Source: Betaproteobacteria bacterium (GTDB lineage: Bacteria; Pseudomonadota; Gammaproteobacteria; Burkholderiales; JACQAP01). From it: a DNA stretch of 64,000 nucleotides. The number at the start of each line of letters is the position of its first letter. The stretch's first letter is position 1. The stretch lies in the NCBI GenBank assembly GCA_016194905.1, contig JACQAP010000005.1, positions 62,001 to 126,000 on the forward strand, read 5' to 3'. The translations under genes were made by a program, and so were the position numbers. The notes under the pieces were generated by a model, which saw only the letters and a program-made list of their open reading frames with translations, searched no databases and had not been told where the DNA came from. Shown here piece by piece: positions 16,544-40,151 of the stretch.

Positions 16544-16747
16544 ATGAACCACGGAGGACACGGAGGATACGGAGGAAAAAATGAGGAAGAGCGAATCAGG
16601 GCTAAGAACAGTATGAGTATTCGCAGATCCGCGCCGCCCGCTTTTGCTATCACGGGTCATCAGCCACTGAAACGTTCCGGCCCGAGCATTTTCCTTGCTC
16701 TTGTCTTTCCTCCGTGTCCTCCGTGTCCTCCGTGGTTCAAGAACTAG
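16544..16747. repeat. palindromic intergenic cassette, CACGGAGGA words
   Basis: The left arm (about 16547-16580) is built of CACGGAGGA-like 9-mers and the right arm (about 16710-16743) of their complements, TCCTCCGTG. The loop of about 125 bp shows no gene. The open frame across it would encode a HGGHGG...PPCPPCPPW peptide, a familiar spurious translation of this repeat type. The mRNA could fold into a long hairpin between the TIM-barrel gene and the first SRPBCC gene. Confidence 0.88.
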
Positions 16748-28436: not shown

Positions 28437-28560
28437 ATGCCTTCAGCGAGGTGAGGTGCCTGCGGGATTCCGAAGATTCCCAAGGGATCCCTAAAGGGTT
28501 CCAGAGGATACCGACCTTCGGTCATAACCGGGCTGCGGCCATAAATGTGACTACGTGATT
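28437..28560. repeat. diverged single arm of the 30-kb palindromic cassette
   Basis: Words such as GGGATTCCG, TTCCAGAGGATACCG, TTCGGTCATAACCGG and GCGGCCATAAATG appear in the same order as in the right arm of the cassette at 30275-30360, with several mismatches. It is a degraded relative lying upstream of the second vapB. Confidence 0.65.
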
Positions 28561-28804: not shown

Positions 28805-28908
28805 GGCAGGTACGAGGGCCGAGGTTCGAGGTTCGAGTAGATGCACAAAGATTCGGTGCCTTAAATCAATCCCGACTCGGACCTCGGCCCTCGTACTTCG
28901 GCCCTGAA
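28805..28908. repeat. palindromic cassette, CGAGGTTCGAGG words
   Basis: Arms 28810-28830 and 28876-28896 are inverted repeats matching at 20 of 21 positions (GTACGAGGGCCGAGG...). The left arm contains a GAGGTTC direct repeat. It ends one base before the stop codon of the EAL-like gene, so the transcript of that gene would run into this hairpin. Confidence 0.85.
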
Positions 28909-28909
28909 G

Positions 28910-29653
28910 CTAGAGCGGCTCCACCTTCGCCAACCCAAACCCTTGGCCGAAATCGATCTTGCAGCGGCGCAGATGATCCAGCACCCGGCTGTTTTCCACG
29001 TGCTCGGCAATGGTTTGCGCGCCCAACTCATGGCACATGCGGTTGATCTCGGGCACCCTTGCCGGGTCGACGGCGGTGGCGCTGATCTTGACGAAATCGG
29101 GCTCGAGGGCTTTCAGCTCCGCCAGCGAGGCATCGCTGCCGTCGAAACCGGCCACCGTCAGGCTGCAGCCATGCGGCCGGAGTTCTTCCATGAGTTGCAG
29201 CAGCGATTCCCGGTTGGCCTGGGCGCTGTCGCATGAAATGTCGAAGCCGAGCACCCCGCAGGACAGGTAAGAATCATCGGCATACTGGAGCACGTACTCC
29301 CCGAATTCCTCATCGGCGAGCGTCTCGTCCGACAGGTTGACGATGTAACGCGGGACGTCCCAGTCCGGGTTGATCTTCAACCCGGCGCGGACAAAGCGGG
29401 CAAGGCGGTTGACCACCCAGCGGTCGAGGTAAGGCAGCATGCCGACCTCTTCGAGCACGGGAAAGAACGTGCCCGGGGGCAACAGCTTGGCATCCTCCTC
29501 CTGGAAGCGGACGAAGATCTCGTTGAACGCCCGGCCATCGGCTTCCGGAACGAACGAGACGATGGATTGGCAGTAGAGGACGAATTCGTCCTCCTGCAGC
29601 GCCGACAAGAGCCGGTCGGCAATGTCCTTCTGGGGATCGGATTCACTGTGCAT
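28910..29653 (-). CDS. degenerate EAL-domain protein (copy 1)
   Basis: A 247-residue protein alignable to EAL phosphodiesterase domains but with changed motifs: EIF-VR in place of EAL-LR, VNLSDETL for the NLS loop, DISCDS for the E-T-ES loop, DGSD in place of DDFG, FVKIS for the Lys strand, AEHVEN for EGVE, and GQGF. Several cyclic-di-GMP metal ligands are replaced, so hydrolysis is doubtful, and a binding or scaffold role is more likely. ATG 29653 (MHSESDPQKD) gives the same length as the paralogue at 39.2 kb; an earlier in-frame start exists at 29725. No GGDEF or sensor domain is attached. Confidence 0.78.
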   Translation of the reverse strand: MHSESDPQKDIADRLLSALQEDEFVLYCQSIVSFVPEADGRAFNEIFVRFQEEDAKLLPPGTFFPVLEEVGMLPYLDRWVVNRLARFVRAGLKINPDWDVPRYIVNLSDETLADEEFGEYVLQYADDSYLSCGVLGFDISCDSAQANRESLLQLMEELRPHGCSLTVAGFDGSDASLAELKALEPDFVKISATAVDPARVPEINRMCHELGAQTIAEHVENSRVLDHLRRCKIDFGQGFGLAKVEPL

Positions 29654-29920
29654 TTGTCGGGTGTCGCGGTTGTCGGTTTCCAGCGTGTGGATGCGAAGCT
29701 TCTGAATTGGCAAGCCCCATGCCACCGATGCGCAGGCGGGCCGGGCGCCAGTCTTTAACGGCTACACAATATGCGAAGTAAATGAAAGTGCGAAAAAATT
29801 TTCCGCCGGCACAGAAAGGCCTGCGGCCGGGACTACGGGTCAGAGGCCGATCGAACGCCCTCGTGATGCCGGTAGTAAGTGCCGTGGAGTGTCAGAAGGA
29901 ACGTGACGTGGTAAAACCAG

Positions 29921-30040
29921 GACTGAGTGCTGAGGACTGAGTAAAGGCGGGAATTGCAGGACTTGAGACGCAGACGTCCGGACCGGGCAAAAGCGTGAAG
30001 CAAGACCGATGTCCTTGGGCCCTTACTCAGTCCTCAGCAC
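29921..30040. repeat. palindromic cassette with perfect 18-bp arms
   Basis: 29927-29944 and 30023-30040 are perfect inverted repeats (GTGCTGAGGACTGAGTAA). An extra GGACTGAG word precedes the left arm. The spacer of 78 bp has no gene. It belongs to the GGACTCAG word family. Confidence 0.9.
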
Positions 30041-30043
30041 TTG

Positions 30044-30360
30044 TGGTCGAAGGCCGGTTATGGCGCAGCCGGTTATGGTCGAAGACCGGTATCCCCTGGA
30101 ATCCTTCGGAATCCCGCGGGCGTTACTCGTCCCCTGCTATTCGTTCCTTCTCGGCATGAATGTTATGTCATCGCGGCGCTGATTCCCTTGAATCCTTCCT
30201 GCCTAACATGCCAGCCTGATTAGGCTGGCCGTGAATGTCGTGCCCCACAAGGGGATTCCGCAAGGGATTCCACAGGATTCCAGGGGATACCGGTCTTCGA
30301 CCATAACCGGCTGCGCCATAACCGGTCGTCGACCATAACCGGGCGTTCGCCCATAAATAT
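30044..30360. repeat. palindromic cassette with perfect 51-bp arms
   Basis: 30054-30104 and 30275-30325 are exact reverse complements over 51 bases. Each arm holds CCGGTTATGG words in tandem, then TCGAAGACCGG and TATCCCCTGGAATCC. Outside the arms, weaker copies of the same words continue (GTCGTCGACCATAACCGG at about 30325-30340). The 170-bp spacer contains a small hairpin (CCAGCCTGATTAGGCTGG at 30211-30228) and no recognisable gene. The sequence lies between the degenerate EAL gene and the TetR gene. Confidence 0.95.
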
Positions 30361-30415
30361 CGTGAGGATCGTGAATTTCGTGAAGACCTTGGCCGAGCGC
30401 GCGCTCGCGACGGAA

Positions 30416-31042
30416 TTAACGCCCGCGCTTCGGCTCGAAAGCGGTAATGACCGCCTGGACGAGCTGGCGGGCGAAGCCGGCATCCAGCTTGGCATGCTGC
30501 ACCAGCAGCCGGAACCAAACCGGTCCGAACAGCATGTCGGTCATGAGTTCCAGGTCGGCACCCTTGGTGATCTCGCCGCGTTCGACCCCGCGCTGCAGGA
30601 TCTCCCGGGTGGCGGCGCGGCGCTTGGAGATGAAGGCCACGCGGAGGATCTTGTTGAAGTCGGCATCGAGTACCGCGTCCGCCATGAGGCCGCGCATGAT
30701 CGCGCCGTAGTCCTTGGAGAGGCGCTTGAATCCGGCATTCATGAACACGTCCAGGTCCTCGCGCAGCGATCCGCGATCCGGGGTCGGCACCAGGTCGGCG
30801 GCATGGTTGGCGAAGGCCTCGAGGATGAGCTCGGCGCGCGACCCCCACCATCTATAGATGGTCTGCTTGCCGACGCCGGCATGGCGGGCGACGCCTTCGA
30901 TGGTGACGGCGTTGTAGCCGTCCTTCTGCATGAGCTGCAGCACCGCATCGAGGATCGCGCCGTGGCATTCCGTACTGCGCGGCCTGCCGCGTAACGCTTT
31001 GGCGTCGTCGTCGAGGATTTCAGTCGTGGCGGATTTGGGCAT
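30416..31042 (-). CDS. TetR/AcrR-family repressor of the efflux operon
   Basis: A 208-residue TetR regulator. The helix-turn-helix VTIEGVARHAGVGKQTIYRWW is at about residues 46-66, with a TetR C-terminal domain of the AefR-like type. It is divergently transcribed from the RND operon with a 180-bp gap that contains palindromic candidate operators. By analogy with AcrR, it probably represses efflux until a toxic ligand binds its C-terminal pocket. Confidence 0.92.
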   Translation of the reverse strand: MPKSATTEILDDDAKALRGRPRSTECHGAILDAVLQLMQKDGYNAVTIEGVARHAGVGKQTIYRWWGSRAELILEAFANHAADLVPTPDRGSLREDLDVFMNAGFKRLSKDYGAIMRGLMADAVLDADFNKILRVAFISKRRAATREILQRGVERGEITKGADLELMTDMLFGPVWFRLLVQHAKLDAGFARQLVQAVITAFEPKRGR

Positions 31043-39201: not shown

Positions 39202-39945
39202 CTACAGCGGCTCCACAGGGGAGATCTGGAATCCCTGGGCAAAATCGATTTTCGATCGGCGCAGGTGCTCCAGAACCTGGTCGTTTTCCACATGTTCCAC
39301 GATGGTCTTGCTTCCGGCCAGATAGCTGCGGCGCTGGATTTCAGGCATCTTGGCCGGGTCGACGGACGTCGCGCTCATCTTGACGAAATTCGGTGTGAAG
39401 GCATTCATCGCTGCAAGGGATTCGTCGCTCCCATCAATGGCGGAAAGGGTAAAGCTGCAACCGTGATGCCGGAGTTCTCCCATCAGGCGCCGCAGCCCCG
39501 TCGCGTTCTTCAGCGCGGTGTCCCATGTAATCTCGAACCCGATCGCCCCTTTGGCCAGGAACGAGTCGACAACGTACTTGCGCACGTAGGGCCCGAATTC
39601 CGCATCGAGGAGCGTCTCGCCGGAGAGATTGACATTGCTGCGCGGGACTTCCCAATCCGCCTTGACGCGCAATGCGCCGCGTACCCAGCGAGCCAGGCGG
39701 TTGACCACCCAGCGGTCGAGATAAGGCAGCAGGTGGCACTCTTCGAGAACGGGAAAAAACGTTCCCGGCGGAAGCAACATGGCGTCCTCTTCCTTGAAAC
39801 GGACGAAGATCTCCTGGAACGGCCTCTGTTTCTGCGGCGCTCCGAGCGGAACGATAGTCTGGGTGTAGAGGACGAATTCGTCCTTCTGCAACGCCGAGAT
39901 CAGGCGATCGGCGATATCCTTTTGTGTCTCCGGTTCCGCATCCAT
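39202..39945 (-). CDS. degenerate EAL-domain protein (copy 2)
   Basis: A 247-residue paralogue of the protein at 28.9 kb, with the same length when started at ATG 39945 (MDAEPETQKDIADRL). It shares IFVRFxEEDAxLLPPGTFFPVLEE, LPYLDRWVVNRLAR, IDGSD(E/A)SLA, and the end HVEN-VL-HLRR-KIDF-QGF---VEPL. It reads FEITWDT where active EAL proteins have LEITES, and AQGF for GQGF. Several metal or substrate ligands are altered, so it may sense or sequester cyclic-di-GMP or bind another partner. It stands alone. Confidence 0.78.
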   Translation of the reverse strand: MDAEPETQKDIADRLISALQKDEFVLYTQTIVPLGAPQKQRPFQEIFVRFKEEDAMLLPPGTFFPVLEECHLLPYLDRWVVNRLARWVRGALRVKADWEVPRSNVNLSGETLLDAEFGPYVRKYVVDSFLAKGAIGFEITWDTALKNATGLRRLMGELRHHGCSFTLSAIDGSDESLAAMNAFTPNFVKMSATSVDPAKMPEIQRRSYLAGSKTIVEHVENDQVLEHLRRSKIDFAQGFQISPVEPL

Positions 39946-40151
39946 ATTGGCAGTTGCGTCCAAGTATCAGGCTTTCGGGATCAAGCGTGCATCGCGAACA
40001 TCCATTCGATTCGGGAGAGCTTTCAGCGCAGCCCTCCGCTGCCGGTTGTTCGCCCAATCCACCGACGGCGGCAGACCGATATCCTGAATCATACGGGGAA
40101 AACCGTGCGGCACCATCGCCGCGCCGCCGATCGGAACAGACGCGACTTCCG

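Follow-up and report, generated by a model that had tools for sequence, protein, structure and literature searches.

A 52-bp palindrome probably formed by two inversely oriented copies of a very small, genus-typical mobile element

The palindrome and its surroundings

The window, i.e., the whole stretch of 64,000 nucleotides of DNA analysed here, contains a long palindrome located between the gene for an EAL-domain protein (28910–29725, minus strand) and the gene for a TetR-family regulator (30416–31042, minus strand), with a gene for an AcrB-type transporter following the latter. A preliminary description of this DNA had recorded exact reverse-complement arms at 30054–30104 and 30275–30325. 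These were verified, and the full perfect stretch proved to be one base pair longer than noted: the arms measure 52 bp, the left at 30054–30105 and the right at 30274–30325 (neither with a strand assigned), and are separated by a spacer of 168 nt. They are embedded in wider, imperfect arms of 75 nt with 93% identity (30041–30115 and 30264–30338). The inner hairpin that had been mentioned for the spacer was located at 30210–30229 and reads GCCAGCCT-GATT-AGGCTGGC (no strand). Among perfect inverted repeats of at least 20 bp with arms within 2 kb, the palindrome is the longest in the window; in 20 first-order Markov sequences of 64 kb, the longest perfect inverted repeats within 2 kb reached 13–18 bp. 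The window has only one other perfect inverted repeat of at least 20 bp with arms at most 2 kb apart, of 23 bp at 16545–16739, which has 34-nt arms (97%) lying 127 nt apart and is built of CCTCCGTGT words. The very long hairpin expected of a transcript was borne out in the predicted RNA fold (−200 kcal/mol, z = −18.3 relative to shuffled sequences), a strong z of the kind that any long inverted repeat would give.

Each perfect arm lies inside a larger, composite block. Copy 1 (30042–30120, plus strand, 79 bp) contains the left arm and is built of three TTATGG-hairpin-CCGG modules, the first of which is degenerate (TTGTGG), followed by GTATCCCCTGGAATCC-type modules and a final GCGGG. Copy 2 (30243–30355, minus strand, 113 bp) contains the right arm and is built of four TTATGG-hairpin modules followed by GTATCCCC..GGGG modules. 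Both blocks have element-like ends, i.e., T/TGTGG..GCGGG in copy 1, where the start is degenerate, and T/TATGG..GGGG in copy 2 (here and below the slash marks a joint). The 52-bp identity spans two hairpin modules and the first GTATCCCC module, and it stops inside modules, not in common flanking DNA. A third composite copy of 85 bp, TATGGCCGCAGCCCGG..GCAGG, is located at 28459–28543 on the minus strand; this is the diverged relative at 28.5 kb of the preliminary description, which is real, yet one among many copies, and the phase of its flanks (0.67) equals the 95% level of random joins.

The two blocks sit beside two different short-period arrays. Copy 1 starts directly after an array hairpin built on a 7-mer, GGACTGA-like word, the first arm of which occupies 29920–29948 and the second, ending ...CAGCACT, 30019–30041 (no strand for either); the stretches 29926–29948 and 30019–30041 are 96% complementary. 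Across copy 1 the array phase matched at 0.57 of the straddling positions, compared with 0.67 at the 95% level of random joins, and this non-significant continuity is only suggestive. Copy 2 interrupts a 9-mer array on the minus strand, which is ATTCACGAT-like on the upstream side (30356–30384) and continues on the downstream side as CACGACATTCACGGCC (30227–30242). This interruption is in phase, with a straddling match of 0.89 at period 9 against 0.78 at the 99% level of random joins. Copy 2 and its array directly follow the stop codon of the TetR gene. A further 7-mer array hairpin (28810–28896) follows the stop codon of the EAL gene, and in the sister genome G003 a similar array hairpin, free of any insert, follows the EAL gene (L093). 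The window has two EAL-type genes, the one named above and another at 39202–39963; they lie 10 kb apart, are 62% identical, and the second is likewise followed by an array, of the CGAACCT type. Within the window, Rfam recognised nothing but a tRNA at 54.3 kb.

That the palindrome is an assembly artefact, i.e., a folded-back or misjoined repeat, is highly improbable. Inverted repeats are classical assembly traps, but at either end the 79-bp block has a different number of modules from the 113-bp block, and their flanking arrays are distinct; a folded-back misassembly is disfavoured by these flanks and by the differences between the blocks beyond the 52 bp. Moreover, with 36 contigs the assembly reaches a completeness of 99.8%, and the palindrome lies 92 kb into its contig.

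A dispersed family of hairpin modules

When a 298-bp stretch with the palindrome was used as a query, at least 13 further matching places were found in its own 4.75-Mb genome (40 of the 44 candidates scored), and these consist of strings of TTATGG-hairpin-CCGG words followed by GTATCCC..GGG words. One of them, C31:83563–83633, carries the same module order as the palindrome arms, matching at 90% over 72 nt and giving a local score of 45 against the 51-nt arm. The recurrence of this order shows the composite itself to be a repeated unit, so two insertions could yield equal identity in the two arms. In its simplest form the element is 27–33 nt long and reads TATGG-N-C-GNA-G-N-CCGGTATCC..GGG; with its joints, the basic element is T/TATGG(N)C-GNA-G(N)CCGGTAtCC..GGG/C, a mini-hairpin often accompanied by a second one. 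Longer mosaics of the same modules exist, both blocks in the window being examples.

To describe the distribution, three short sequences and one longer pattern were searched for, the short ones with reversed controls. In its own genome, TTATGGNCGAAGNCCGG gave 67 matches with up to two mismatches, relative to 21 for the reversed control. Matches to TTATGGNCGNAGNCCGGTA numbered 56 across all four genomes of the genus (24 in G000, 8 in G001, 8 in G002 and 16 in G003), against zero in a set of 56 genomes from elsewhere in the order; the reversed control had no match in any of them. With one mismatch allowed, TATGGNCGNAGNCCGGTATCC was matched in five of 300 genomes of the order, i.e., the four genus genomes and G200, a genome of another family, and its reversed control had one match, in G144. 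The element is accordingly present in all four genus genomes and in one of 296 other genomes of the order, where it stands within an IS-like repeat. In the GTDB species set of 84,980 genomes, from which the own genome may be left out, a longer GAA-loop pattern was found in 15 stretches from three MAGs titled Betaproteobacteria or Bordetella. Both arms of the palindrome are members of a dispersed, modular, genus-wide family.

The occurrence in G200 was looked at separately. There the unit-like 28-mer lies within a repeat of 197 bp (e.g., L129 1000–1190), of which 23 matches were counted, many copies being at contig ends; the ends of this repeat are IS1380-like. Among 13 copies compared, the 21-mer was identical and the next 7 nt were TTTAGGG in 11 and TTCAGGG in 2. 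G200 was rejected as the source genome, its 23 matches being the unit inside the end of the 197-bp repeat. The occurrence there goes back to a single event or to chance resemblance, for which our own arithmetic predicts about 0.03 exact matches. Spread by plasmids was likewise rejected: at E 0.01, none of 72,556 plasmid records matched copy 1, and the G200 repeat had no plasmid match at E 0.001. A contig of a viral collection, IMGVR_UViG_3300005836_000055 (L159 4803–4824), carries one element, TATGGGCGAAGCCCGGTATCCCGTGGA. The genus-specific element is also carried by a MAG titled Bordetella parapertussis TH-08apr19-40 (CAMDKM01; L013, L015, L017–L019 and L027), several loci of which are identical to loci of G001; judged by these sequences, the species label of this MAG is probably wrong. 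Unrelated to the insert, a stretch of about 235 bp (L034 1512–1746) has at least 15 further full or partial matches across the four genomes.

The stem of the element was analyzed by a search that is blind to the interior (TTATGGN{4,12}CCGGTA), which returned 94 matches in the four genus genomes; the reversed control returned 39, so that some of the 94 may be chance matches. All 75 units whose interior measures 7 nt kept the variable pair (72 Watson-Crick and 3 G-T), with T-A in 36, C-G in 19, G-C in 16, G-T in 2, and A-T and T-G in one each. Shuffled controls had on average 26.7 Watson-Crick pairs and a maximum of 39 in 5000 shuffles. In 87 of 94 units, pairing continues until at most 4 nt are left in the loop. 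A GNA triloop, mostly GAA, was present in 61 of the 75, compared with 57.1 expected from the two loop positions taken independently, and the loop bias is thus one of composition, not of covariation. DNA mini-hairpins of the GCGAAGC type have special stability, and most of the loops fit this type; as an explanation it was rejected, since the energy model gave no excess stability. The predicted DNA fold was no better than that of shuffled sequences for five single elements (z from −1.72 to +0.22) or for copy 1 (z = +0.86). The evidence for structure is therefore the covariation of the stem and not its energy.

Insertion joints and orthologous sites

The joints were analyzed by comparing 48 distinct units, of which 40 had both ends defined by rule and 8 were dropped; the 40 include three inner units of composites. 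Many inserts are flanked by short tandem words, such as TCACCAG, CCTCGTC or ATTCACGAC, and the host arrays are intergenic with a period of about 7–9 nt, several of them lying directly after stop codons. Removal of the insert tends to restore the phase of the array: across the 40 copies, 0.764 of the straddling positions in the joined flanks matched one period away, relative to 0.587 for a shuffled-partner control (sd 0.019, maximum 0.655 in 2000). The score peaks at T/TATGG and GGG/C, being nearly equal one base off (0.759 for the left joint at −1 and 0.747 for the right at +1) and 0.55–0.71 elsewhere. The base before the insert is T in 40 of 40 copies and the base after it is C in 35; the dinucleotide at the left joint is CT in 15, TT in 15 and GT in 10.

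Orthologous sites were compared in the four draft genomes of the genus, a comparison in which gain and loss are unpolarised. At site 1, an identical 30-nt insert is present in G000 and G003 and absent from G002 and G001. Between the same anchors G002 is exactly 30 nt shorter (159 versus 189), with a continuous array, and there is no target duplication. At site 2, the insert is present in G000 and absent from G003 and G002, while G001 has an oppositely oriented insert at another place in that intergenic region. The anchor intervals here are 175, 141 and 147 nt and the letters of the arrays have diverged; because letters and lengths both differ, the exact joint is shown by site 1 only. After a GST-like gene (named by eye), an insert is present in G000, and in G002 there is an array hairpin of other words that is free of inserts; before this gene, G002 carries its own insert-like stretch. 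An insert is present in G000 and in G002 alike between glyA and nrdR (genes named by eye); the two genomes differ there in the stem letters as well as in the array words. For L049, no stretch orthologous to its inserts came out of the comparison of the genus genomes. The basic element behaves as expected of a small mobile element, being found in some of the four genomes and missing from others at orthologous sites and having a precise joint at site 1.

For the palindrome itself, the preliminary description had proposed a comparison with relatives. Only one sister genome, G003, has a close TetR orthologue (88%; other TetR matches were at most 34%), and the palindrome was absent from that locus: behind the G003 TetR gene there is another array together with a stretch that by eye is transposase-like.

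These comparisons bear on whether the palindrome is a transcribed regulatory hairpin, i.e., a small RNA, a terminator or an mRNA stabiliser, selected as RNA. Such a role would fit the very stable predicted fold (z −18), the compensatory stem changes with few G-T pairs, and the arrays placed right after stop codons at several loci. It is nonetheless unlikely, as there is no Rfam match at the palindrome, the long inverted pair occurs in none of the 13 other matching places, the palindrome is missing at the G003 TetR locus, and single inserts differ between species. An RNA gene was rejected on the first and third of these grounds, and the earlier view of a stand-alone hairpin or small-RNA locus gave way to that of arms which are copies of a dispersed family, the simple form of which is present or absent at orthologous sites. 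The effect on the host is probably small: the palindrome would act like the intergenic hairpins of REPs and not as a dedicated RNA gene.

Origin of the palindrome and comparison with known systems

In our view the palindrome is likely to be a pair of composite copies, inversely oriented and recently made, of a very small mobile element characteristic of the genus. One block would have given rise to the other in the adjacent array not long ago, whether through insertion or through arm-to-arm conversion, and this would have produced the 52-bp identity. Of the recent arm homogenisation proposed earlier, recent copying is supported and homogenisation in place is not, the arms being members of a dispersed modular family.

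The arms might instead owe their identity to a local inverted duplication or to arm-to-arm gene conversion (template switching) independent of the mobility of the element, to which we give somewhat less than an even chance. The arms are identical over 52 bp and none of 32 loci compared in the own genome matches the 51-nt arm perfectly: the best local score is 45 (L002), nine others score 24–36 and the rest below 24. Against this, both blocks have element-like ends and stand beside two different arrays, the modules stand in the same order at C31:83563, simple elements vary in presence at other sites, and the identity ends within modules instead of in common flanking DNA.

As to how two mobile copies could have arisen, the element may travel as a folded single strand, which an HUH/Y1-type or other enzyme acting in trans would recognise and whose ends it would join between T and C; the target would be the exposed, hairpin-prone arrays. 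Members of the IS200/IS605 family are not known to duplicate their target on insertion. Loci for Y1_Tnp proteins are present in all four genus genomes (4 in G000, 7 in G001, 1 in G002 and 2 in G003). None of these 14 loci has a unit, with up to two mismatches, in its flanks of up to 1.5 kb (less at contig ends), and among reading frames picked by script no Y1 group is common to all four genomes, the two Y1 proteins of G003 having no match to the others above 45%. Because of these two results the enzyme step is put forward tentatively, with rather more doubt than assurance. A RAYT-linked REP was rejected: Y1 genes do occur in four of four genomes, but the unit is carried by none of their 14 loci.

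REP elements are the nearest known kind. REPs and REPINs are intergenic stem-loops of 20–40 bp that occur in inverted pairs and clusters, with tens to thousands of units (PMC3733652, PMC3116915), and excision of REPINs has been described (PMC3116915). The GTAG- and CGTC-tagged superfamilies are defined by their tags, alternative complementary residues occur in the stems within a family, and the CGTC type has no linked transposase gene (PMC3733652). The element described here resembles REPs in size, in its intergenic place and in its compensatory stems, with 75 of 75 variable pairs kept. It differs from them in that neither a GTAG nor a CGTC tag is found at its ends, which have TTAT or TATGG instead: the ends of 40 units are TATGG, fixed on this left side by the search pattern, and GGG, GGA or GAG. 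A further difference is that it lies inside short-period arrays, the simplest copy being a single or double mini-hairpin with mostly a GNA triloop. In contrast to the GTAG-type REPtron, it has no Y1 (RAYT) gene beside the repeat (0 of 14 Y1 loci), and, unlike a MITE, it has no target-site duplication at the one site that bears on this (site 1), nor are its TATGG and GGG ends inverted repeats of each other by inspection.

Small Dispersed Repeats of cyanobacteria (SDRs), which are closely analogous, are very small mobile modules, some of 20 bp, that insert precisely (PMC4390886, PMC3116915, PMC2884548), and SDR5 enters the HIP1 palindrome (Elhai 2008, as cited in PMC4390886, PMC3116915 and PMC2884548). 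A very small and precise insert at a short target is common to SDRs, as these citing papers describe them, and the present element, whereas the bacteria are different and the targets here are tandem arrays of 7–9 nt. With IS200/IS605 elements and TnpA-REP the element shares hairpins and short fixed nucleotides at the joint. Unlike the former it has no gene between its ends, and, while TnpA-REP of E. coli cleaves at CT beside a hairpin (PMC8266576), the left joint here is CT, TT or GT.

A search of the open-licence literature yielded no description of the insert of about 30 nt. It is conceivable, though we regard it as rather doubtful, that the element represents a new class: a gene-less mini-hairpin insert of about 30 nt, mostly with GNA triloops, which homes single-stranded to intergenic array hairpins of varying word and has neither a known tag nor a linked transposase. 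It may hitch-hike on phages or insertion sequences, given the one copy on an IMG/VR contig and the unit-like 28-mer in an IS-like repeat. To the authors' knowledge, a 30-nt insert that differs exactly between species and leaves no target duplication would rank among the smallest mobile DNA. Given its compensatory stems and the exact empty site, it becomes possible to test which enzyme moves a 30-nt hairpin, and whether the enzyme does so on single strands. A long perfect palindrome, moreover, can be a pair of small inserts and not an RNA gene.

The arrays themselves have counterparts elsewhere. Convergent pairs of heptameric repeats, GGGAATC, occur in Xanthomonas (PMC4692102) and TAACTGA arrays in Beggiatoaceae (PMC4679880). 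Like the Xanthomonas pairs, the host arrays combine short-period tandem words with a nearby reverse-complement array; in contrast to them, the word varies by locus and can differ at orthologous sites. The available sections on the Xanthomonas pairs do not mention an insert (PMC4692102). Tandem words with a reverse-complement array nearby were found at 29926–29948 and 30019–30041 and also at L032, L033, L038, L039 and L044, and not at every insert compared. Arrays hold their position at orthologous intergenic sites while the tandem word is replaced, as seen between L046 (G000) and L020 (G002), between L034 (G000) and L161 (G002), and between L083 (G003) and 30356–30384 of the window; at the EAL gene, the word family of the array is kept between G000 and G003.
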